Source of the DNA: Ruminococcus sp. Marseille-P6503
Lineage (GTDB): Bacteria > Bacillota > Clostridia > Oscillospirales > Ruminococcaceae
Reading direction: 5' to 3'
Assembly (NCBI RefSeq): GCF_900604945.1
Contig: NZ_UWPB01000002.1
Location: 868,001 to 932,000 of the forward strand
DNA length: 64,000 nucleotides
In this document: piece by piece, positions 1 through 27,742 of the stretch
Layout of the letters: every line of letters begins with the position of its first letter
Position numbering within the stretch: position 1 is the first letter of the stretch
The notes under the pieces: model-generated
Database searches by the model: none
What the model saw: only the letters and a program-made list of their open reading frames with translations
What the model was told of the DNA's origin: nothing
Program-made: the position numbers and the translations under genes

Positions 1-1
1 T

Positions 2-349
2 CAGTCGTTGCAGATGATAGGCAGACCGCTTATGACTGTTGACGAGTTGAAGTCTATGCCTAAAGGACAGTTTATCGTTATGAAAACCGGAACTCACCCT
101 ATGATCTCAAAATTGAAGCTGTACTTTAAATGGGGAATTAAATTTGAAGAAGAATACAAGCTTCCCGACAAGACCGCAAGGCAGGTTTCCTACAAAGAGC
201 GTGACGAATTAATCAGAGATGTAGAGGTCAAATATCCGCAGAAAAAAGCCGAGCCGGTCGATGAAATCGAGGTTGTCGATTATGAGGAGTTTGAGGAATT
301 TGAAGAAGAACGGGCTAAAAAAGCTAAGATCAAAACGAACAGGAGGTGA
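2..349 (+). CDS. Conjugal transfer coupling protein TraG/VirD4, C-terminal part
   Basis: The frame is open from the window edge and ends in TGA at 347-349, so only the last 115 or so residues are present. The stretch IGRPLMTVDELKSMPKGQFI resembles the C-terminal end of VirD4/TraG coupling ATPases, where (Q)xxRPLMTxDEL precedes a final beta strand and an acidic tail. Here the tail is rich in Glu and Lys. Coupling proteins bring the relaxase-DNA complex to the type IV secretion channel. The Walker motifs are upstream and not visible. The next gene starts within 10 nt, consistent with a transfer operon. Confidence 0.75.
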   Translation, partial: QSLQMIGRPLMTVDELKSMPKGQFIVMKTGTHPMISKLKLYFKWGIKFEEEYKLPDKTARQVSYKERDELIRDVEVKYPQKKAEPVDEIEVVDYEEFEEFEEERAKKAKIKTNRR

Positions 350-354
350 AATAC

Positions 355-777
355 TTGCCGCCGATGCAAAACGACGGAGCCTCCGCACACCAAAATCATA
401 TACGGAAATTTTGGCGTGCCTTTTCTCCTGTTTTGAAATCATCGGCAAGTATATGCAAATTGATATTACCAAGAAGAATTTACGACCTAGGACTAAGCCA
501 CAAGGCGGTGGCAGTTTACTGTTATCTTTGTAACCGTGCGGATAAAAACGGGGAATGTTTCCCGTCTGTACGCAGGATATCCGAAGATTTAAACATTAAC
601 AAAAGTACGGTGTTTCGGGCGTTTAATGAGCTTGAAGAACAAGGACTGCTGGAACGTGAAGCAAGATACCATACGCGGGGCGGACGGCGGAGTTCGCTGT
701 ATAGGATAAAGGGAGAGATAACGCCGAAAGGGGGCGGAAAATCCACCTCTAAAAAGGTAGGTGGATTGAATGTTTGA
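355..777 (+). CDS. Helix-turn-helix domain protein of the transfer operon
   Basis: A 140-residue protein with a winged-helix segment in the middle (LSHKAVAVYCYLCNRADKNG, then SVRRISEDLNINKSTVFRAF). This is the pattern of helix_turn_helix_36/replication-initiator-like proteins found in conjugative elements. It probably binds DNA and regulates the operon or assists replication, but the target is unknown. I chose the TTG at 355 because AGGAGG at 341-346 sits 8 nt upstream. The GTG at 346 overlaps that site and cannot use it. The stop overlaps the next gene by 8 nt, suggesting translational coupling. Confidence 0.65.
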   Translation: MPPMQNDGASAHQNHIRKFWRAFSPVLKSSASICKLILPRRIYDLGLSHKAVAVYCYLCNRADKNGECFPSVRRISEDLNINKSTVFRAFNELEEQGLLEREARYHTRGGRRSSLYRIKGEITPKGGGKSTSKKVGGLNV

Positions 778-1699
778 TTGGATAGGCGACGCTATTGACT
801 GGGTTTGCGACGGGATTTCAAGTTTGTGGGACAGCACAATTGGAGCAGCAGCCGACGCAGTCAGCGATGCTATATGGGACACTATGTTTAATTGGCTGTT
901 CGAAAAAATCTACGGACTGATAGCTGATCTTTTTACATTTATAAATGAGACTGCAACGGATATTTTTGCACTTCCATGGGTAAATACGTTTATAAGTCTG
1001 TTTAACAGCCTTGCATGGATGCTATTTGTCTGCGGACTTATCGTAGCCGTGTTTGATACGGCTGTCGCTTATGAATCGGGACAGGTAAATATAAAGAATA
1101 CCTGTATTAATGTTTTAAAGGGTTTTATGGCTGTAAGTATGGTGACTGTAATTCCGCAAAGGCTGTATTCATTCTGCATAAATTTGCAGAGTAATTTTGC
1201 AACTGAACTGCTTGGAAATTTTATAGGGTCAACAAATGACAGCGTAGTAGGAACGGGACTTGAAGTTATATTTGCTCTTGGTTCAGATATATCTCTTTTC
1301 AGCCTGTTCTTTATAATCCTGTTTGGCTACTGTACGGTCAAAGTAGTGTTTTCAAATATCAAGAGAGGCGGAATAATGATGTGTCAGATAGCGGTTGGGA
1401 GTCTTCATATGTTCGGAGTACCGAGAGGATATACTGACGGATTTTACGGCTGGTGCAAGCAAGTAATTGCGACCTGCCTGACGGCATTTTTGCAGACAAC
1501 GATTCTTTACATTGGACTGCTGACGTTTACACAGCACCCTTTGCTTGCAGTCGGAATATGTTTGTCAGCTAATGAAGTACCAAGAATTGCGCAGATGTAT
1601 GGACTGGATACAAGCGTCAGGGTGAATATGATGTCTGTAAGTCATACGGTTTCTATGGGAGCTAAGGCGGTTGGAATGCTGAAAGGAGGAGCAAAATGA
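770..1699 (+). CDS. VirB6/TrbL-like conjugal transfer membrane protein
   Basis: A 309-residue polytopic membrane protein with an amphipathic N-terminus rich in Trp and Asp. Hydrophobic segments lie near residues 81-100, 116-128, 175-194 and 232-252. This layout and its place directly before PrgI- and VirB4-like genes match VirB6/TrbL proteins, which form the inner-membrane channel of Gram-positive type IV secretion. No catalytic motif is expected. The start ATG follows AGGTGG by 6 nt and overlaps the preceding stop. The next gene overlaps by 4 nt (ATGA), so the genes are co-translated. Confidence 0.7.
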   Translation: MFDWIGDAIDWVCDGISSLWDSTIGAAADAVSDAIWDTMFNWLFEKIYGLIADLFTFINETATDIFALPWVNTFISLFNSLAWMLFVCGLIVAVFDTAVAYESGQVNIKNTCINVLKGFMAVSMVTVIPQRLYSFCINLQSNFATELLGNFIGSTNDSVVGTGLEVIFALGSDISLFSLFFIILFGYCTVKVVFSNIKRGGIMMCQIAVGSLHMFGVPRGYTDGFYGWCKQVIATCLTAFLQTTILYIGLLTFTQHPLLAVGICLSANEVPRIAQMYGLDTSVRVNMMSVSHTVSMGAKAVGMLKGGAK

Positions 1700-1962
1700 A
1701 AACCTACATTTACCCCGAAAACCTGAGAGCCACGGTAAAGCTGTGGTTTTGGAACGTTCGGGATTTTATTATAATCTGCGGCGGAATAATTCTGTCGGTG
1801 ATCGTGTTTGTTAATCTATGGAACGTCCTGCCTTTCGCGGCGACAGCCTGCTTTGCGTTTTTAAGTCTGAGGGTCGACGAAACGGCAATTATGGACTATA
1901 TTTTTAACGCCGCGAAGTTTTTTCTGACCTCGCAGCAGTTGTTTTTATGGAGGAAAAATTAA
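1696..1962 (+). CDS. PrgI/VirB3-like small membrane protein
   Basis: An 88-residue protein with two hydrophobic segments (about 22-42 and 46-60) followed by a basic aromatic tail ending FFLTSQQLFLWRKN. A short two-helix protein with a terminal W-R motif directly before VirB4 is the pattern of PrgI/TcpE/VirB3 family proteins, which anchor VirB4 at the membrane. It overlaps the VirB6-like gene by 4 nt and abuts the next gene without a gap. Confidence 0.65.
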   Translation: MKTYIYPENLRATVKLWFWNVRDFIIICGGIILSVIVFVNLWNVLPFAATACFAFLSLRVDETAIMDYIFNAAKFFLTSQQLFLWRKN

Positions 1963-2556
1963 ATGGCAAAAAGGAAAAATAACGGCGTTCAGAGTCTTAT
2001 TGGCTTTGAACGCTTTACTCGTTTCGGAGTAAAAACCGACAAGGCTGAAATTGTGTTTTTCAGCGTAGAACCCACCAATATTTCTGTTCTTTCGGCGGCA
2101 AATATTGACGTGAAGATACATCATCTTATGACGCTGTTAAGCACCATACCCGACCTTGAAATACTGGCTCTGGACTCCTGCGAGTGTTTCGATACAAACA
2201 AGGTGTATGTCAAAAAGCGTTTGCGGACCGAGCGGAATGAAGCTGTGCGAAAGCTTTTGCAGGCGGACTATGATTTTCTTGACGAGATACAGGTGGAAAT
2301 GTCCTCCGCAAGACAGTTTATGTTTGCGGTGAGATTCCGCAGAGAAAAAGACGAGCAGATATTCAGCACGCTGAATCGTATTGACAAAGCAATCTCAGAG
2401 CATGGATTTACGGCAAAACGAATGACTAAGCCTGAGATAAAAAGAATGCTCGCGCTGTACTTCGGTACAAGTATTTCAGGAGAAGAAATTTCGGATGTAG
2501 AAGGTTCAGAAAATTTTGTTTTAGAAAAACAGGAGGTGATTTCCGATGAAAATTAA
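1963..2556 (+). CDS. Conserved transfer-operon protein of unknown function before VirB4
   Basis: A 197-residue soluble protein, basic at the N-terminus (MAKRKNNGVQ) with a mixed alpha/beta core. A segment near residues 45-70 (DVKIHHLMTLLSTIPDLEIL) resembles the N-terminal region of some VirB4 proteins. A gene in this position, between PrgI and VirB4, is common in clostridial ICEs. It may supply the VirB4 N-terminal domain as a separate chain; that is inference. GGAGG lies 9 nt before the ATG, and the 3' end overlaps the VirB4 start by 11 nt. Confidence 0.5.
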   Translation: MAKRKNNGVQSLIGFERFTRFGVKTDKAEIVFFSVEPTNISVLSAANIDVKIHHLMTLLSTIPDLEILALDSCECFDTNKVYVKKRLRTERNEAVRKLLQADYDFLDEIQVEMSSARQFMFAVRFRREKDEQIFSTLNRIDKAISEHGFTAKRMTKPEIKRMLALYFGTSISGEEISDVEGSENFVLEKQEVISDEN

Positions 2557-4378
2557 AAATCAGAAGAAAAAAGAATATTCCGATGAGCAGCTTGAAGTTA
2601 TTGAAACAAAGGACTTTTTTGACCGCACAGTACCGGGAATGATCAGGTTTTACACCGACCACTATATCTGCGGAAACTTTTACAAGTCCTGCTGGGCGAT
2701 TACCGAGTACCCTCCAAACACCGAAGAAACGGCTATTTTAGCGCATTTAGCGGACAGGAACGGAGTAACTCTCAGAATTTACAACCGCCTTGTTACAAGC
2801 ATGGAGCAAAGAAAAATTGTTCAGCAGGCAATGCGTAAAAACCACATGATGACCACCACAAACGATGTAAATGAGAGCATAAAGGCTCAGAATAACATTA
2901 ACGATGTTGTTGAACTGCTGTCGGAGCTTAGGAGAAACAAAGAACCGCTGCTTCATACGGCTGTGTTTATTGAACTCAAAGCAAGTACAGAAGAAAAACT
3001 GAAAGAGCTTCAGGCGGATATACAAATGGAACTTACACGTTCAAAAATCAGCGTAGACCGTTTGCTCCTTCGTCAGAAAGAGGGGTTTTTGAGTGTTCTG
3101 CCAACGGGTAACAATGTTTTCGCAAGCCAGTTTGAGCGTGTTCTGCCTGCAAGCTCTGTTGCTAATCTCTATCCCTTGAATTACAGCGGAAAGACGGACG
3201 AAAACGGCTTCTATATCGGCAGAGATAAGTACGGCAGCAACGTTCTTGTGGACTTTGATAAGAGAACCGAGGACAAGACAAACAGCAATATATTGATACT
3301 CGGAAATTCAGGTCAGGGAAAAAGTTATCTGATGAAATTACTGCTTTGCAATCAGCGTGAGGCAGGCAAATCAATTCTCTGTCTTGACCCTGAGCATGAG
3401 TACGAGGATTTGTGTTTAAATCTCGGCGGAACCTATATTGACATGATGTCGGGTGAATTTATGATAAATCCCTTAGAGCCGAAAATGTTCGGAGAAGCCG
3501 AAAAGAACACCGACACTCCCGAAACATTCAGGAGAGTAACAAGATTATCTCAGCACATATCATACCTCAAGGACTTTTTCAGAGCCTACAAGGACTTTAC
3601 CGACAGCGAAATTGACACCATTGAAATTATGCTGATGAAGCTGTACGCAAGATTCGGAATTGACGATTTTACCGATTTTGAAAAGCTGAACAGCGAGGAC
3701 TATCCTGTGATGTCAGACCTCTACGAACTTACTGAAAAGGAATTCATGGCGTTTGATAACAAGAAAAAACATCTTTACACTGAAGAAATGTTACAGAATA
3801 TCTGTCTTGGACTGCACTCCATGTGCAAGGGCGCGGAAAGCAAGTACTTCAACGGTCACACCAACGTTAATGACGGCGAGTTTATCTGTTTTGGAGTAAA
3901 AGGTCTTATGGATACAAACAAGCGGCTTAAAGATACTATGCTGTTCAACATTCTCAGCTATATGAGCAATCAGCTTCTGGGAAAGGGAAATACCGTAGCG
4001 GCTATTGACGAGCTGTATTTGTTCCTCACAAACATGACGGCAATCGAATATATCCGCAACGGCATGAAACGTGTGCGTAAAAAGGAGTCCTCATTTATTC
4101 TGGCAAGTCAGAATATTGAGGACTTCCTTTTGTCCGAAATTAAGGAGTTTACAAAGCCGCTGTTCAGCATTCCTGCACACCATTTTCTGTTTAATCCCGG
4201 AAATATCTCGCCTGTGGAATTTGTGGACGCTTTGCAGCTGGAGGAATCGGAATATGCTTTGATCAAGTATCCCGAACGTGGTACTTGCCTTTACAGGTGC
4301 GGTAATGAGAGGTATCTGTTACAGGTCATTGCGCCGCAGTATAAGGCGGGGCTGTTTGGCTCGGCGGGAGGAAGATAG
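2546..4378 (+). CDS. VirB4-like type IV secretion ATPase
   Basis: A 610-residue ATPase that should power substrate transfer and pilus or channel assembly at the membrane. The Walker A motif GNSGQGKS lies at residues 253-260 (Lys259), and the Walker B strand ends in Asp488-Glu489 (TVAAIDELYLF). The C-terminal segment SSFILASQNIEDFL fits the sensor region of VirB4/TraC proteins. It is shorter than most VirB4 proteins (about 800 residues), consistent with the N-terminal part being carried by the overlapping upstream gene. The start ATG is preceded by GGAGGTG. Confidence 0.85.
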   Translation: MKIKNQKKKEYSDEQLEVIETKDFFDRTVPGMIRFYTDHYICGNFYKSCWAITEYPPNTEETAILAHLADRNGVTLRIYNRLVTSMEQRKIVQQAMRKNHMMTTTNDVNESIKAQNNINDVVELLSELRRNKEPLLHTAVFIELKASTEEKLKELQADIQMELTRSKISVDRLLLRQKEGFLSVLPTGNNVFASQFERVLPASSVANLYPLNYSGKTDENGFYIGRDKYGSNVLVDFDKRTEDKTNSNILILGNSGQGKSYLMKLLLCNQREAGKSILCLDPEHEYEDLCLNLGGTYIDMMSGEFMINPLEPKMFGEAEKNTDTPETFRRVTRLSQHISYLKDFFRAYKDFTDSEIDTIEIMLMKLYARFGIDDFTDFEKLNSEDYPVMSDLYELTEKEFMAFDNKKKHLYTEEMLQNICLGLHSMCKGAESKYFNGHTNVNDGEFICFGVKGLMDTNKRLKDTMLFNILSYMSNQLLGKGNTVAAIDELYLFLTNMTAIEYIRNGMKRVRKKESSFILASQNIEDFLLSEIKEFTKPLFSIPAHHFLFNPGNISPVEFVDALQLEESEYALIKYPERGTCLYRCGNERYLLQVIAPQYKAGLFGSAGGR

Positions 4379-4381
4379 AGC

Positions 4382-4459
4382 ATGAGCGGAGGTCATAATA
4401 TGAGTGTAATTAAAGACCAACTTGCCGAAAAGCTGAAAAATAACTGCTATGAGGATTAA
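4382..4459 (+). CDS. Possible 25-residue ORF after VirB4
   Basis: An ATG three bases after the VirB4 stop opens a 25-codon frame (ending LKNNCYED). GGGAGG sits just inside the end of virB4, and a second in-frame ATG at 4400 has its own GGAGG. It may be a real micro-ORF or the stub of a longer protein deleted here, since the downstream reading frame is not continuous. Nothing identifies a function. Confidence 0.3.
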   Translation: MSGGHNMSVIKDQLAEKLKNNCYED

Positions 4460-4520
4460 AGACAGATAAATCTTAATAAAATGCAAAAAAATTGATTTGC
4501 GTCAAGAACATTTTAATACG

Positions 4521-4555
4521 GAAGCCGCAGTAAAATGCGGTTCTTATTTTTATTA
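4521..4555 (+). terminator. Rho-independent terminator-like hairpin after virB4
   Basis: GAA(G)CCGCA pairs with TGCGGTTC across a GTAAAA loop with one bulged G, followed by TTATTTTTATT. It lies between the VirB4 block and the NlpC-like gene and would separate or attenuate the two parts of the transfer operon. Confidence 0.5.
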
Positions 4556-4616
4556 GCGACATATAGAATGCAGAAGAAAAGTTTTATATGTTATATATCG
4601 AAAATTGTGAGGTGAT

Positions 4617-5627
4617 ATGATGTCGGCAGCTATTATATCGGTTGTAAAGAAGATAGCCATATATATTTTAAGTGACAAAGAAAAGCGGGGGAAGTTTTTA
4701 GTTATTGTCGGAAGTATTATTGCAGGTGTTTTGGGACTTATGTTTCTGCCTGTGGCTGTGCTGTCCTCGATGGGAAATATGGAGATCGAACAGCCTCAGA
4801 TAGACAAAAGCTTGTTCAACGAGTCGGCAATTATGGCGAGTATGGACAGCGAACAGCAGGCGAAAATCGATGAAATTCAAACCGCCGGACAAGAAATTGA
4901 AATAAAAATGTCTGAAAAAAACATTCGAGAGCAGACAATAAAAGCACAGTTGATTTACTTTTCATATTTTGAAAGCAGCCCGATTACCGACTTTGAAGTT
5001 TACACAAATCTGTTTGCAACCGCCGCAAGCGATGAGATTTTGCTTGACAGCATCAAGGCAAATTACGGCATTGAAATTCCTTATGAGGACTTTATGCGGT
5101 CATATACTTTGGTGATGAACAGCACAATTAATGAGTATATGTTTTCCGACAGCACAATCAAAAACTGCGCCGATCTTGCGGCTTGGGCGGAGAACGCGTA
5201 CATCTCCGGCTGGGGATATATGAACGGATTTATCGGCGAGAGAAACGAAAGCGATCGTATCAGATACTGTGATAACGCGGGGCTTATGCTTGGGTATCTG
5301 AACTACGATCCCACGAAAAAGGTGTTCGGTTCCGATTACGATACGCTTGTTTACACCGAGCAAGGAGGTCTTGATACCATGCCGGAGGTCGCGGGGGTAG
5401 GACTGTTCGACGAAACAAATCACGGGATATATATTGGAAACGGAGAAGTAATTTACTGTTCTGAAACTGTCGGATATGTGACGAAAGACCTTGTTTCAAA
5501 TGGGAATTGGACAAGCTGGTGTACCTATGAGAGTGTGAATTATTCGCAGGAAGTGCAAGATAAAATTGATGAAATTCAGAACGTGGAAGAAGAATCAAGT
5601 GATGAAAAGGAAGATGATGTTGAATGA
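4617..5627 (+). CDS. CD1108-type NlpC/P60-like transfer protein, catalytic residues replaced
   Basis: A 336-residue protein with a basic N-terminus, one transmembrane segment (about residues 29-53), a helical middle and a C-terminal domain resembling the NlpC/P60 (C40) peptidase of clostridial mobile elements. Family members cut peptidoglycan to let the transfer channel through. From memory of the family, the motifs are DC-x-GLxxGY and HxGVYIGNG. Here they read CDNAGLMLGY and TNHGIYIGNG, so Asn replaces the catalytic Cys, and the usual His position is Asn with a His one residue later. It is probably a non-catalytic structural homologue. The ATG follows GAGGTGAT, and its end overlaps the next gene by 4 nt. 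Confidence 0.6.
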   Translation: MMSAAIISVVKKIAIYILSDKEKRGKFLVIVGSIIAGVLGLMFLPVAVLSSMGNMEIEQPQIDKSLFNESAIMASMDSEQQAKIDEIQTAGQEIEIKMSEKNIREQTIKAQLIYFSYFESSPITDFEVYTNLFATAASDEILLDSIKANYGIEIPYEDFMRSYTLVMNSTINEYMFSDSTIKNCADLAAWAENAYISGWGYMNGFIGERNESDRIRYCDNAGLMLGYLNYDPTKKVFGSDYDTLVYTEQGGLDTMPEVAGVGLFDETNHGIYIGNGEVIYCSETVGYVTKDLVSNGNWTSWCTYESVNYSQEVQDKIDEIQNVEEESSDEKEDDVE

Positions 5628-5860
5628 AAAAATCGGTTACGATAACAATTAACGCTGAAAAATTAGCGGCTCTGGAAATGTATTTAGGACAGAAAAATTT
5701 GAAGCTGTCGGAGGAACTTGAAAAGTTTTCGGAGCATCTCTATCAGAAATATGTACCCTCTAACGTCCGTGATTTTATTGGCATGATGTCGGCCAAAAAG
5801 CCTGCGAGAAAACCGAGAAACTCCTCGCCTGCCGAAACGGGAAATCAGTCCGAGCGGTAA
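5624..5860 (+). CDS. DUF6103-like small protein
   Basis: A 78-residue protein (MKKSVTITINAEKLAALEMY...) with an N-terminal beta strand and helix followed by YVPSNVRDFI and a basic tail. This matches the DUF6103 type of small ICE protein as I remember it; function unknown. The ATGA overlap with the NlpC-like gene places it in the transfer operon. A ribbon-helix-helix-like DNA-binding role is possible but unproven. Confidence 0.5.
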   Translation: MKKSVTITINAEKLAALEMYLGQKNLKLSEELEKFSEHLYQKYVPSNVRDFIGMMSAKKPARKPRNSSPAETGNQSER

Positions 5861-6236
5861 CTCGCCGCGGTTCGCACCACTTCGCCTCGTGTGGCGTTTT
5901 CAAGGCATGGGTGGGGTAACTTTACTTTAAGGACGATCGGGGCGAATTTGGGGCATTTTGTCGAGCGTTAAGGAGAAGCCTTAACGCGGAGTTTGAGAAT
6001 GGCGGAAATCATAAGATTTCAGGTGTGTTATAGGGTAAATATTTTATTGCTAGTTAAAGTATCGGGGTTGTGACCCCGATACGGTCACAGCGGACGGCAA
6101 AGCCGACCGCATTTTGCGAGGGTTTAAGCAATCTCGGAGTAAGGGGTTGTAAATTCAGCCTTTTTCAGATTTCGGGGTTGTATCAGCAGAAAGCAAAGAA
6201 AATACGACATTTGTAAAGGAGTTGAGGTTTAAATTC
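5861..6236. other. Candidate origin of transfer (oriT) with four hairpins
   Basis: This 376-bp gene-free region just upstream of the MobC-like and relaxase genes holds four inverted repeats. They are GCGTTAAGG/CCTTAACGC (5965-5973, 5979-5987), GAAATC/GATTTC (6005-6020), GTATCGGGG/CCCCGATAC (6059-6067, 6074-6082) and GCGGACGGC/GCCGACCGC with a central A-A mismatch (6090-6098, 6102-6110). Position and structure fit an oriT. The nick site cannot be read from sequence alone. Confidence 0.55.
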
Positions 6237-6641
6237 ATGAGTTTTCAGAATAAGGTGAAATTTGCGCTATGGGCGTATCCCGAAACGCTGAAAGATGTGG
6301 AGGTTCACTACAAAAACGACAACTGCAGATCGCAGAGCGAGTTCATTGAAAAAGCTATCAAGTTCTACATCGGTTATCTCGATGAAGAAAAAAGCGTGAA
6401 CTATATTTCTCCTATGATAACAGAAACGGTCAAAGCGCAGATAAAAGGTACGGAACAGCGGCTTGCACGTTTGCTTTTTAAGGTTGCCGTGGAGCTTGGA
6501 AAGCTGTCGCATATGACTGCGGCTATCAATGATGTAGATGATGAAACGCTTAGAAATCTTCATGTGATGTGCGTCAATGAAGTTCGTAAGATCAACGGTA
6601 TTATTGATTATGAGGATGCTGTAGAGTATCAGAAAAACTAA
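6237..6641 (+). CDS. MobC-like relaxosome accessory protein
   Basis: A 134-residue protein with an N-terminal ribbon-helix-helix-like unit (VKFALWAYPETLKDVEVHYK, then SQSEFIEKAIKFYIGYL) and a helical C-terminus. Proteins of this type sit directly upstream of MobP3-type relaxases and probably bind oriT to help the relaxase nick. I placed the start at ATG 6237, with GAGG 9 nt upstream; the TTG at 6222 is directly adjacent to AAAGGAG and is unlikely. Only 11 nt separate it from the relaxase gene. Confidence 0.6.
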   Translation: MSFQNKVKFALWAYPETLKDVEVHYKNDNCRSQSEFIEKAIKFYIGYLDEEKSVNYISPMITETVKAQIKGTEQRLARLLFKVAVELGKLSHMTAAINDVDDETLRNLHVMCVNEVRKINGIIDYEDAVEYQKN

Positions 6642-23613: not shown

Positions 23614-24429
23614 ATGAGCAGCTTTTCGACGGTTTACAGCGAATACTACTATTACTGCAGAATATCAAATGTTGAAGAAGCACAAAGTAAATTTATATGC
23701 TGTAATTCGATTTTAAGAGATGAAAGTAAAGGTACATCGTTAGCACTTCAATTATTTGAGGATAAATATGAAGAAGAAAAAACGAAGTTGTATGAAAAAT
23801 ACAAAAGGATATATGATGATTTTCTATCTTATTCCGATGCTCTTATTGATGGGAAGAAAATTGACAGCGAAGAAAAATATATCCGGTATATTCATAACCT
23901 AATGCGTATATCTAACGAAATGATAATTTTTACTAACCAGTATTTTGTATCATCATCAAATAAACTGCTGAAAAATAAATATGATTTTGATGGCAAAGAT
24001 AAAAAGCTTTCTTATATAATCAATCAGAACAGAAACATCCCATATATAATCAATAGCGATTTAGTGGATAATTTTATTGATGGAAATAGTAATACTATTA
24101 TGTTTTCTTTAGCAAGTGCTTTTTTAGTTATAGCAATAACATTAGGAATTTGGTTGTATAACTCATTTGCAGAAGCATTTAAAGAGAATACAAGTTTTAT
24201 TACTATTATTATTAATAATTTTTTGGTACTTGTATTATTTGTGTGTTTTGCTTTTTTATTTATTTTTTATCTTGTATTGCTTATAAAATACAAACGAATA
24301 TTTAAATTAAAAGAAGTAAAATATATGGCGCAGCGACGTAATCGTACATTAGTGTGTAATGCCTTTAAAACAAACTGGACAATGAAGAACATATTAAATA
24401 TAATGAGTATGCTTAAAGAATTAAAGTAA
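23614..24429 (+). CDS. Membrane protein of unknown function
   Basis: A 271-residue AT-rich gene. The N-terminal 155 or so residues are charged and helical (FEDKYEEEKTKLYEKYKRIY). Two transmembrane helices follow (about 168-187 and 196-225), then a basic tail. This soluble-helical plus two-helix layout is seen in some SLATT-type or effector proteins, but no motif proves a relationship. Composition differs from the ABC genes upstream. GGGAGG lies before the ATG and a terminator follows, so it may end the operon or be an independent cargo gene. Confidence 0.5.
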   Translation: MSSFSTVYSEYYYYCRISNVEEAQSKFICCNSILRDESKGTSLALQLFEDKYEEEKTKLYEKYKRIYDDFLSYSDALIDGKKIDSEEKYIRYIHNLMRISNEMIIFTNQYFVSSSNKLLKNKYDFDGKDKKLSYIINQNRNIPYIINSDLVDNFIDGNSNTIMFSLASAFLVIAITLGIWLYNSFAEAFKENTSFITIIINNFLVLVLFVCFAFLFIFYLVLLIKYKRIFKLKEVKYMAQRRNRTLVCNAFKTNWTMKNILNIMSMLKELK

Positions 24430-24476
24430 AGTGCAATATATAGTTTTGACGGCTATAATATTACATAATGAATTTT

Positions 24477-24512
24477 ACTCCATTTCGATTAAAACGGAAT
24501 GGAGTTTTTTTA
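24477..24512 (+). terminator. Terminator after the cargo block
   Basis: ACTCCATTTCG pairs with CGGAATGGAGT (one T:G wobble) across ATTAAAA and is followed by TTTTTTTATG, a classic intrinsic terminator. Confidence 0.8.
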
Positions 24513-24528
24513 TGCCCTTTTATATATG

Positions 24529-24602
24529 TTGGCAATGCTTAATTGCCAAATATCCATAGCCTTCGTTTTGATTCAAACGAAAAAAAGTAATCAAAACGGA
24601 GG
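24529..24602 (+). promoter_or_regulatory. Leader with mutually exclusive hairpins before the sigma-like gene
   Basis: An 8-bp hairpin TTGGCAAT/ATTGCCAA (24529-24549) is followed by two overlapping alternatives. TTCGTTT/AAACGAA (24562-24581) competes with CGTTTTGATT/AATCAAAACG (24564-24573, 24589-24598), whose last base is also the first G of the GGAGG ribosome site. Switching between them could control translation of the gene at 24610. Confidence 0.4.
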
Positions 24603-24609
24603 TTAAAAA

Positions 24610-25032
24610 ATGAAAAGTAAAAAACTCAGCGTGTATGACGCTGTAAATAAAAAATATACGGAAGTTGAGGTCAGCGATGAGGTTTATACATATTACAAAA
24701 GAACCGGGTGGGCTATTGAAAATAACGACAGATCATTTTACGAACATGAGATACAGTTTTCAATGCTAAAGGGCGGCACGGACGGAGCCTTTGAGAATTT
24801 TCACGAATTTATTGCAGCCGAGGATGTTACGGAAAAATATATCATGACAGAGGGACTGAATAAGGCATTGAAAATGATCTCTTCAAAAGACAGAGAGCTT
24901 ATTGAACTGCTCTATTACAAGGAAATGACTGAGCGAGAATGCGCTGCGTATTACGGTATTAGTCAGAAAAATATACACAAAAAGAAAGTGAGAATTTTAG
25001 ACAATCTTCACAAACTTTTGGGAAAGGCATGA
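24610..25032 (+). CDS. Sigma-70 region 4-like factor of the recombination module
   Basis: A 140-residue protein. The C-terminal part (KALKMISSKDRELIELLYYK, then CAAYYGISQKNIHKKKVRIL) is a sigma-70 region 4 helix-turn-helix. The N-terminal half shows no clear region 2, so it may be a sigma-like activator. Such genes are common immediately before the excision/recombinase genes of clostridial mobile elements. GGAGG precedes the ATG, overlapped by the hairpin described in its leader. The structured RNA candidate follows directly. Confidence 0.65.
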   Translation: MKSKKLSVYDAVNKKYTEVEVSDEVYTYYKRTGWAIENNDRSFYEHEIQFSMLKGGTDGAFENFHEFIAAEDVTEKYIMTEGLNKALKMISSKDRELIELLYYKEMTERECAAYYGISQKNIHKKKVRILDNLHKLLGKA

Positions 25033-25059
25033 TTTTAGGGGTATCAAAACTCCGACTTT

Positions 25060-25550
25060 TTACCGTATACAAGCGTAAGAAGTATAAAACTGTTTCTTAA
25101 AGCAACTTGAAAACAGAATATCAACTCTGCAAGTACGTTAATCACACGGCTGGTATGAAATCTCAGCAGCCGCATGGGATACACGCCAAGACCTTCGATG
25201 AAAGAAACTGTAGGTGACAGATGCAGCGGACTTCATCGGCAGCGAGCGAAAAATGTAAATCTCAGACCTTTGAATAGCTTTCAAAGTCGGCGATGAAACG
25301 TGTGAGGATAATGATACTTCCATATAAGGGCTGAAAAAGCGCGGGTGAAACGCCCATGAGATCGGTAAGCTGCTGATCGCTTGCAGAGTTCCGTCGTGTC
25401 GGGGTTTGGAACAAATAACACGGAAAACGTCCGAAACGAAAATGAATCGGACGAAGGCAAAACGAGTTAAAGTTATTCCGTACTTCCGTTTTGACGGTAC
25501 GGATATAACTCAAGTGCAGGAGTAGAGAATTTCTGTGCTTGAGTTATATA
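25060..25550 (+). ncRNA. Candidate large structured noncoding RNA
   Basis: About 490 nt without a credible ORF, visibly richer in GC than the flanks and dense with inverted repeats. These include CTGTTT/AAACAG (25090-25116), CGGCTG/CAGCCG (25147-25172), GTCCGA/TCGGAC (near 25429-25452), CCGTAC/GTACGG enclosed by GAGTTA/TAACTC (25464-25510), and AACTCAAG/CTTGAGTT with two further wobble-paired steps (25507-25545). It resembles the size and habitat of large ornate bacterial RNAs (for example the ROOL class), but I cannot assign a family by eye. The strand is assumed from the flanking genes. Confidence 0.5.
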
Positions 25551-25569
25551 CAGAATGGAGGATATGCGA

Positions 25570-25749
25570 TTGCTGAATGAAAAGGATAAATCCGATTGGG
25601 ATAAGGTACGTTGTAAACTTCTTAAAATCAAGAATAAAGATGAGGTTTACGTTAACGGAAATGAATGCCGTAAATGCGTATGGTCTAATACTGAATCGGG
25701 AAAAATATTATGCACCAAAAGGTGCGGAAGAAAAGGCGACAAAATATGA
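25570..25749 (+). CDS. Small cysteine-containing protein of the recombination module
   Basis: A 59-residue protein (LLNEKDKSDWDKVRCKLL...) with five Cys, including a C-x2-C (ECRKCVW) and a second C-x3-C (ILCTKRC) that could bind a metal ion. Function unknown. I favour the TTG at 25570 because GGAGG (25557-25561) lies 8 nt upstream. ATGs at 25555 and 25564 overlap or crowd that site. It follows the RNA candidate directly. Confidence 0.45.
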   Translation: MLNEKDKSDWDKVRCKLLKIKNKDEVYVNGNECRKCVWSNTESGKILCTKRCGRKGDKI

Positions 25750-25771
25750 ATAATACGAGGGAGGTCGTAAG

Positions 25772-25891
25772 ATGTCAGGCTTTATAATAGGACTTTTAAT
25801 AGGAGGATTTACAGGCGTTTTTGCAATGTGTCTTTGCACAGCTGCGGGGCAGGCGGATAGGCGTAAAAACTGCACAGGAAAAGACAAATAA
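25772..25891 (+). CDS. DUF3789-like micro-membrane protein
   Basis: A 39-residue ORF (MSGFIIGLLIGGFTGVFAMC, then LCTAAGQADRRKN) with a single glycine-rich hydrophobic helix, a Cys-Leu-Cys motif and a basic tail. This matches the DUF3789 family of tiny proteins in clostridial conjugative elements as I remember it. GGGAGG is well placed before the ATG. The function is unknown. Confidence 0.6.
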   Translation: MSGFIIGLLIGGFTGVFAMCLCTAAGQADRRKNCTGKDK

Positions 25892-25956
25892 TTTCGTTGG
25901 GTTTGGTAATACCATTATGAAAATAATTGTGATATTGTTGTAAGGAGGAAACGGAA

Positions 25957-26112
25957 TTGAATAAGGAAATTACAGAAATGTTCAATGACTGCGAGGTCAC
26001 CATTGCGTTTAAGAATAAGGCGGAACCTATAAAAGATCAAGTGCTGTGGCTTATACTTGAAAGTTTTAAGGAACGCATAGAAACGCAGTTTGGCTTTACC
26101 GTTGATCCGTAA
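25957..26112 (+). CDS. TnpW-like transposon-encoded small protein
   Basis: A 51-residue ORF starting at TTG 25957, with AAGGAGG 8 nt upstream. The core CEVTIAFKNKAEPIKDQVLW followed by LILESF resembles TnpW-type proteins encoded next to TnpX recombinases in Tn4451-like elements (pattern Y-T-V-x-F-x(n)-K-D-K-I-L-R-L-I). It immediately precedes the recombinase gene, as in those transposons. Its biochemical role is unknown. Confidence 0.5.
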   Translation: MNKEITEMFNDCEVTIAFKNKAEPIKDQVLWLILESFKERIETQFGFTVDP

Positions 26113-26134
26113 AAATACAGTTGGGAGGATAACC

Positions 26135-27742
26135 ATGTCAGAAATAGTATACTGCCTTTACAGAGTTTCAACTGCTAAACAGGTGGATAAAGTCAAGGAC
26201 GATATACCGATGCAGAGAGAAGCTTGCAGAGATTTTGCAAAGCGAATGGGCTGGACAGTGGAAAAAGAATTTCTTGAAAAAGGCGTGTCGGGCTTTAAGG
26301 TTTCTGCAACCGACAGAGACGCTATACAGGAATTGAAAGCCGCCGCTCTTAGAAATGAATTTCAGATTCTGCTGGTGTTTATGTTCGACAGGATAGGACG
26401 AATAGACGATGAAACGCCGTTTGTAGTAGAGTGGTTTGTAAAGCACGGCATCAGAGTATGGAGCGTTCAGGAAGGCGAACAACGGTTTGAAAGTCATGTG
26501 GACAAGCTTATGAATTACATACGTTTCTGGCAGGCATCGGGCGAATCAGAAAAGACTTCTATGAGAATAAAGACACGAATGCAGCAGTTAACGGCGGAGG
26601 GATGCTATACCGGAGGCGGAGTACCTTTTGGATATCAGCTTGAAAAGAGAGGTCGTCTTAACAAAAGAGGCAAGGAGATATATGACTTAGCTGTAAATCC
26701 AATAGAAGCCGAATGGGTAACGGTGATATTTGAGAAAACAGTCAAAGAGGGCTACGGTTCGCATAGACTGGCATCATTTATGAACGATAACGGCGTAAGG
26801 ACACATAGTGGAGCGAAATTTCAGTGCAATACTATAATAAGGATACTGAGGAATAAGCTCACCTGCGGATACATGGTATCGGGTGAAACAGTTTCGCCTC
26901 ATATGAAAGAGCTTCAGATTATAGACGAAAAGCTGTTTGAAAGGGCACAGTTCATACTGGATCAGAGAGCAAAAAAGAATGATGAGGAAAGACATATAGC
27001 TATGTCTACTAAAAGCCAGGCAATGCTGTCAGGCATAATGCACTGTGCTCACTGCGGAAGCAGACTTACGTCCAGTATGCATACTGAAAAGTATATTCTG
27101 AAATCCACAGGCGAAGTCAGAACTAAGCAATACCTAAGATATATGTGCTACCACAGAAGCAGAAAGCTTTGCGACTGCGACGGTCAGTCGGTATACTCGG
27201 CTGAAAAGGTTGACAATGCAATATGCAATGTGATGGCTGATATTTTTTCAAAAATCAGTGATGCTCCCGATGAAGCGGAGCTTAAAAGGGAATATAACAA
27301 GGAAATGCAGAAATGCAGAGCAAAACAGACCAAATTTAACGCTGAACTGAGAAAGTACAAGGCTCAGTATGAAAAGCTAAATGACGAAATAGCCAATACG
27401 CTGATAGGGGAGAGCTTCTACTCGCCGGAACAGCTTTCAGCAGCGATGACTACGGTACAGCAGAAGATCGACGTTATAAATCATCAGCTTGAAAAACTGA
27501 ACAACGAGATAGAATTTAAAAGGGCTTCAATGGAAAAGGTAAGACCTATGTACGAACAGTTTAAGGGTTGGGCAGAGGAATTCAGACTTGCATCCATAGA
27601 GCAGAAAAAGATGATAATATCTCAGGTGACGAGTAGGATAGAGCTTGGCAGGGGATATAGGATAAGGATAACGCTTAATATGGAGTATGAGCAGTTTTGC
27701 GAGGGGTGGAATGCATTGGAGACGGGCGGGAAAACAGAATAA
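26135..27742 (+). CDS. Large serine recombinase (TnpX-like)
   Basis: A 535-residue site-specific recombinase expected to excise and integrate the conjugative element. The N-terminal resolvase domain has nucleophile Ser12 in CLYRVSTAKQ and the conserved SGEKTSMRIKTRM-like helix. A recombinase domain follows (GGGVPFGYQ, then YGSHRLASFMND and IRILRNKLTCGY), then a zinc-ribbon region (CAHCGSRL...CYHRSRKLCDCDG) and a long C-terminal coiled coil. I place the start at ATG 26135 after GGAGG. Its last 100 or so bp recur twice downstream (31967-32075 and 33588-33703). Confidence 0.85.
   Translation: MSEIVYCLYRVSTAKQVDKVKDDIPMQREACRDFAKRMGWTVEKEFLEKGVSGFKVSATDRDAIQELKAAALRNEFQILLVFMFDRIGRIDDETPFVVEWFVKHGIRVWSVQEGEQRFESHVDKLMNYIRFWQASGESEKTSMRIKTRMQQLTAEGCYTGGGVPFGYQLEKRGRLNKRGKEIYDLAVNPIEAEWVTVIFEKTVKEGYGSHRLASFMNDNGVRTHSGAKFQCNTIIRILRNKLTCGYMVSGETVSPHMKELQIIDEKLFERAQFILDQRAKKNDEERHIAMSTKSQAMLSGIMHCAHCGSRLTSSMHTEKYILKSTGEVRTKQYLRYMCYHRSRKLCDCDGQSVYSAEKVDNAICNVMADIFSKISDAPDEAELKREYNKEMQKCRAKQTKFNAELRKYKAQYEKLNDEIANTLIGESFYSPEQLSAAMTTVQQKIDVINHQLEKLNNEIEFKRASMEKVRPMYEQFKGWAEEFRLASIEQKKMIISQVTSRIELGRGYRIRITLNMEYEQFCEGWNALETGGKTE

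Follow-up and report, generated by a model that had tools for sequence, protein, structure and literature searches.

What lies between the sigma-like gene and the recombinase gene of the conjugative element in this window, the 64,000-nucleotide stretch of Ruminococcus sp. Marseille-P6503 DNA that was analysed? A preliminary description had marked 25040..25555 as a protein-free, hairpin-dense segment of an ICE recombination module and suggested a large structured RNA of a family it could not name, which might regulate excision or be ROOL-like. We find that the segment holds a member of the RNA family that includes canT of Tn916, a 452-bp region described by Wirachman and Grossman in 2024 as a cis-acting, orientation-specific processive antiterminator, most likely an RNA, in the available part of their report (PMC11658703).

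Results and Discussion

The gene directly upstream of the RNA (24610..25032, + strand) encodes a sigma-70 region 4 protein (Pfam PF04545, E 1.4e-5) and takes the place of orf7 in Tn916-type elements. Downstream, on the same strand, lies a serine recombinase gene (26135..27742; Pfam Resolvase and Recombinase), and genes for TrbL, a TraG P-loop protein and a MobL relaxase are found to the left, again on the same strand. These latter genes presumably belong to the same element as the RNA, and the layout, with conjugation genes left and the recombinase right, resembles that of Tn916. A terminator-like hairpin (24477-24505) lies 5' of the sigma gene and a weak one (25038-25053) ahead of the RNA, while a terminator scan gave no such site directly 3' of it. 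The 3' side adjoins a small gene (25555-25749) whose cysteine-containing product has a CVW...C...C pattern and no Pfam match; a similar CVW...C...C protein is encoded directly 3' of the RNA in a second element of the same genome (L055, 1815-2030).

The segment is indeed free of any open reading frame of credible length or family over 25033-25554, where the longest frame (83 aa, TTG start) runs on the minus strand, antisense to the RNA. Its propensity to fold is strong: for the + strand of 25033-25560 the folding energy is -163 kcal/mol, where shuffles average -129.7 (sd 5.8; z -5.73) and 0/100 are equally stable, and the minus strand folds less well (z -3.39).

The Rfam covariance search that the preliminary description had proposed identified positions 25308..25359 (+ strand, AUAAUGAUACU...CCCAUGA) as RF02913, 'pemK RNA', at 40.8 bits by cmscan (gathering score 34.8), which gives the segment a family. 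RF02913 was the sole family above its Rfam threshold here, and the likeness to ROOL is not upheld: in a scan of 24400-26200 at E up to 5, RF02913 was accompanied by four chance-level matches and by none of ROOL, GOLLD, HEARO and EAR, which we take to be names of Rfam families. The RF02913 model, of Rfam type 'Cis-reg', has 61 positions and lacks the 5' box and the helices P1, P2, P3, P5 and P9 described below; the layout of the relatives shows that it is a piece, the core, of a larger RNA class. Two papers that name the pemK motif or RF02913 deal with structure updates in their accessible text, and another mentions pemK with RNAs found close to defence genes. The original Rfam motif paper for pemK is reportedly that of Weinberg et al. 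from 2017.

Two further RF02913 copies are present in the same genome. Matches occur in 70/197 genomes of the family, 121/391 of the class and 26/398 of the phylum (overlapping samples, each including this genome), with up to 9 per genome, and in 0/14 control genomes. DNA similarity alone finds relatives in merely 10 of the 197 family genomes, this one included. A DNA search with the window RNA gave no match in plasmids and a single one in phages, L133 (MT839456.1, 1395-1790), a scaffold from the human gut that was deposited under the name 'Bacteriophage sp.' and aligns with 79% of the query at 70.4% identity; a search for Tn916 in plasmids with the sigma protein returned just two Paenibacillus records.

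For comparison of the complete RNAs, 62 fetched loci and the window were scanned with a regular expression for the core. This left out 16 of the fetched loci, all at RF02913 matches, and gave 52 matches, from which five second or spurious ones were dropped; the remaining 47 loci, window included, were joined by four added by hand from named records, making 51. They show a common layout, in which a box, the 5' strand of helix P1, an AC.TT motif and P2 are followed by a hairpin region of variable make-up (motifs AGCC, CGCC and GAGCGA in the relatives), P5, the core, P9 and the 3' strand of P1. In the window, on the + strand, P1 pairs AACTCTGCAAGT (25123..25134) with GCTTGCAGAGTT (25379..25390), strands some 250 nt apart, and closes a multibranched domain of ~270 nt with variable hairpins 3' of it. 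The AC.TT motif, conserved in alignment A1, follows at 25135..25139; P2 joins TCACACG (25142..25148) to CGTGTGA (25299..25305), and P5 (CTTTGA/TCAAAG, 25268..25286) and P9 (GATCGG/CTGATC, 25360..25378) are local hairpins.

Covariation among homologues, another check that had been proposed, strongly supports a large structured RNA in the ICE recombination module. In a permutation test, the 5' strands of P1 and P2 were paired with 3' strands of other loci 2000 times, over 40 unique loci (the 51 less 4 without a 5' anchor and 7 duplicates); wrong anchors were kept, which lowered the score. P1 scored 16.65 on average against 5.88 permuted (z 17.9) and P2 15.45 against 7.81 (z 14.8), with 0/2000 permutations reaching the observed value in either case, and a helix of 6 pairs or more could be formed in 27/40 loci for P1 and 32/40 for P2. 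Because the ParA-type RNAs are shifted by one, the 26 sequences of alignment A1 combine two registers of P1; pairs were therefore counted on A2, which holds 18 sequences including the window and leaves aside L057, the canT copy of L128 and the ParA group. Both sides had changed in 39/45 named pairs of A2, including 6/6 pairs of both P5 and P9, and 201 cells were changed on both sides against 67.6 when shuffled. Paired cells amounted to 88.0%, against 65.6% shuffled and 38.6-46.3% slid, a measure on which the structure is favoured, as the window and one relative were the basis for drawing it. P5 was paired in 98.1% of cells, and the weakest helices were P2 (73.0%) and P3 (74.6%). RNAalifold predicted P1, P5, P7, P8 and P9 on A2, but neither P2 nor P3, placing a 3-pair helix over part of P2; on the ParA-type alignment A3 (7 sequences) it predicted P1, P2, P5, P9 and further helices.

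The self-complementary repeats that had first drawn attention to the segment are all present, with varying relevance to this structure. P1, the most important helix, was not among them. CGGCTG/CAGCCG falls at P3, a covarying helix with no more than the above 74.6% of cells paired, and CTGTTT/AAACAG, which overlaps the conserved box, was not seen as a stem in L093 or L133. GTCCGA/TCGGAC forms P11 (CGTCCGA/TCGGACG, 25428..25453, followed by AAGGCAAAACGA), with matching stems by eye in L006, L093 and L133. P12 (CCGTAC/GTACGG with GAGTTA/TAACTC) and P13 (AACTCAAG/CTTGAGTT), which together span 25464..25545, were seen by eye in L093 only, and L133 has another hairpin there. The P10 hairpin (25391..25423) encloses CGGGGTTTGGAACAAATA, and several relatives have a similar loop by eye. 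P12 and P13 share TAACTC and are mutually exclusive; P13 stops just 5' of the ribosome-binding site of the 25555-25749 gene, a possible switch. The original bounds were about right, with a family-wide part at ~25104-25390 and subfamily hairpins to ~25545.

The tetM Tn916-family element of pCF10 (NC_006827; L128) links this RNA to canT. It matches RF02913 at 2323-2423 (55.0 bits), within the 460-nt gap between an orf8-like HTH gene (ending at 2040) and xis (2501), and a vanB element (L132, 57.8 bits) has its match likewise between an orf8-like HTH gene and xis. Among the seven named records searched, L131 (39.8 bits) and L133 (46.7 bits) also matched, and L129, L130 and L134 gave no match at E 0.5; L129 and L130 have the same kind of xis-int pair, and thus not every such element has the RNA. 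In pCF10, orf5 is 83 codons long with GCA as its codon 30, in agreement with what is published for Tn916, so that published coordinates should transfer. The S3 mutation, which inactivates canT and starts 283 nt after the orf8 stop (PMC11658703), then begins at L128:2323 with ATA, the opening bases of the RF02913 match, and corresponds to the first three bases of the window core; in a 400-bp canT fragment, S3 is reported to have little or no effect. The published 162-bp canT deletion (L128:2269-2430) takes out the core, and an old Tn5 insertion at orf5 codon 41 that abolished conjugation (PMC11658703) maps within it, at L128:2395-2397.

P1 and P2 are found at the expected places in L128, which could be aligned with the window in A1, so that core and closing helices are common to both; in both, the RNA lies between regulator genes and a recombinase gene on the same strand. 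canT and 'pemK RNA' are one family, a union that is new here. The discoverers folded canT with ViennaRNA and, in the part of their report available, went no further in analysing its sequence or structure; pemK, Rfam and NusB did not turn up in a term search of the text. The window RNA shares with canT the RF02913 core, P1, P2, the box, a size of ~450 nt and a position between sigma-like/orf8 genes and recombinase genes. Unlike canT, it has a serine recombinase as its neighbour and a MobL relaxase gene on the left, and in contrast to the pCF10 copy its core has no long insert and it carries its own subfamily 3' hairpins. Regulation of excision as such is not borne out: canT is needed for conjugation, not excision, and canT mutants excise normally, as reported in the accessible text (PMC11658703).

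Ahead of P1 lies the boxA-like sequence CTTGAAAACAGAATA (25106..25120, + strand), which a genome pattern search and A1 identify as the consensus of a box before the host 16S and 23S genes. The 15-mer CTTGAMAANNGAATA has 11 matches in the 2.64-Mb genome and 0 in a reversed control: six precede 16S or 23S genes in three rRNA operons (leader or spacer), three head the three copies of the window-type RNA and two lie elsewhere. The operons were identified from 16S and 23S motifs surrounding the box matches, and a 23S pattern search in this genome gave no match. Eight other genomes contain 25 box matches (control 1), comprising 7 in 16S-23S spacers, 6 at RF02913 matches (L204, L205, L208, L210, L218 and L219, confirmed against the RF02913 list), 2 with a core-like motif only (L206 and L213) and 10 others, among which L200 was counted; a script had sorted them as 7 canT, 9 spacer and 9 other, and L206 and L210 were moved from 'spacer' by hand. 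One of the eight, G051, has no box match despite 4 RF02913 matches, and its RNAs bear a variant box. Across the family, YTTGAMAA occurs 5' of the core in 48/51 loci against 4.9% of random background windows, and the 15-mer with up to 2 mismatches in 36/51 against 1.7%.

Boxes also occur apart from the RNA. In this genome, L118 (C4:616857) and L126 (C7:1245192) have the box CTTGACAATAGAATA before a gene but no RNA core, each at a distance of 7-8 kb from the other two copies of the RNA; in L207, L214 and L216 a box near position 1500 stands directly 5' of GGAGG and an open reading frame starting ATGGCAAAAAG, again without the core.

That the box is common to all three rRNA operons of the host suggests use of the rRNA (NusB/S10 boxA) machinery. 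Judged by its position and by a presumed likeness to Bacillus boxA, it may be the Firmicutes equivalent of boxA; we found no paper showing this in a search that most subscription journals lie outside. In E. coli rRNA operons, boxA occurs in the leader and before 23S, recruits antitermination factors and is bound by NusB, as described in the available part of PMC10250234, and the window box would by analogy recruit NusB/S10. rRNA antitermination leaders, with boxA, boxC and a leader-trailer helix, share with our RNA the host box and the succession of box and long-range helix; the enclosed domain was compared by Rfam scans alone. In the active 452-bp canT fragment the box is truncated, as the fragment begins at L128:2166 and lacks TGTTCT, though it retains TTGAAAACTGAATA. 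This speaks against a simple boxA model, a complete boxA apparently not being needed in that assay.

The relatives stand in varied surroundings. Two sigma-70 region 4 models each match 20/47 upstream proteins, including that of the window, where the upstream frame was set by hand to the sigma gene (the rule picked 23614-24426; 19/47 by rule alone), and 2/47 upstream proteins have weak Pfam matches to Phage_antitermQ. Among the genes a short way downstream, the largest codes for PemK at 12 of the 47 loci and for a serine recombinase at another 12; a ParA-type ATPase accounts for 10 loci and a phage-type integrase for 3. These unrelated kinds fit an operon-wide function better than single-gene control. 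Terminator-like sites just 3' of the RNA, in 17/47 loci against 20.5% of background windows, are modestly enriched, and we discount a general excess as weak. Nine ParA-type loci (L061, L063, L064, L065, L072, L076, L078, L082 and L097) have a strong terminator-like hairpin 5' of the RNA, perhaps an insulator like T1 of Tn916, or a host gene end.

We consider it probable (about 80%) that the window RNA is a canT-type cis-acting processive antiterminator. The window copy is presumably transcribed and active, acting on the polymerase. Transcription would start upstream of the RNA, probably before the sigma-like gene; as the nascent RNA emerges, the box would be exposed and P1 would close the multibranched domain, and the folded RNA would stay with RNA polymerase and confer terminator resistance. 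Read-through would take in the DUF3789 and recombinase genes and, after circularisation of the element, continue over the joint into the transfer genes, much as in Tn916, whose transfer genes are reached only by transcription that passes the circular joint and terminators. Other RNA-based antitermination systems are conAn2 of pLS20, put of HK022 and EAR of eps operons, according to the accessible text of PMC8955417. EAR had no match in the window in the Rfam scan, and conAn2 was set aside as a relative, with no good box or core in pLS20 1-40000 and no RF02913 match in 1-6500.

Both the 'Cis-reg' type in Rfam and the name pemK point to another reading, an attenuator or translational leader whose control would extend no further than the first gene downstream. 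A terminator-like hairpin directly 3' of the RNA in L087, L089, L098 and L112 would suit such a local role, as would the competition of P12 and P13 beside the ribosome-binding site of the 25555-25749 gene; yet the downstream genes are as unrelated as PemK, recombinase, ParA and integrase, and canT of Tn916 acts on heterologous and serial terminators (PMC11658703), which makes local control unlikely.

The strong fold and the up to 9 RF02913 matches per genome would also fit a structured RNA of the element that acts in trans, but canT supplied in trans is reported not to complement a Tn916 canT mutant (PMC11658703), and we regard this as very improbable. Slightly less credible still is a site that works as DNA, such as an origin of transfer, an attachment site or a recombinase-binding site, to which the adjoining recombinase gene and the inverted repeats might point. 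Against it, the sequences of the helices change yet their pairing persists, with G-U steps, the fold of the + strand is the stronger of the two (z values above), and relatives adjoin serine recombinases, tyrosine integrases or ParA alike; canT, moreover, depends on orientation and is dispensable for excision (PMC11658703).

Conclusion

The RNA of the window belongs to the canT-RF02913 family, with the structure and gene layout described above, and is most likely a real, so far unannotated member of this family of antiterminators. The union of canT and RF02913, the covariation-supported structure and the rRNA-type box are new here: among the papers listed, none relevant to canT, Tn916 or the antiterminator beyond PMC11658703 was found since 2024, and none that joins boxA, antitermination and Tn916 was found, most subscription journals lying outside the search. 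More tentatively, and at odds a little short of even, all RF02913 RNAs may be cores of one class of large RNA that mimics the way an rRNA operon begins (boxA and long-range helix) and would use host NusB/S10 together with its own folded domain to make the polymerase terminator-proof for entire ICEs, whether Tn916-like, vanB-carrying, ParA-headed or of the serine-recombinase type.

The little-explained RF02913 is joined to a genetically proven antiterminator, and canT gains a covariation-supported structure and a testable mechanism in the rRNA-type boxA. Given the presence of RF02913 in 70/197 genomes sampled from the family, in 121/391 from the class and in a tetM and a vanB element, the mechanism is relevant to the activation of conjugative transfer in many gut Firmicutes.
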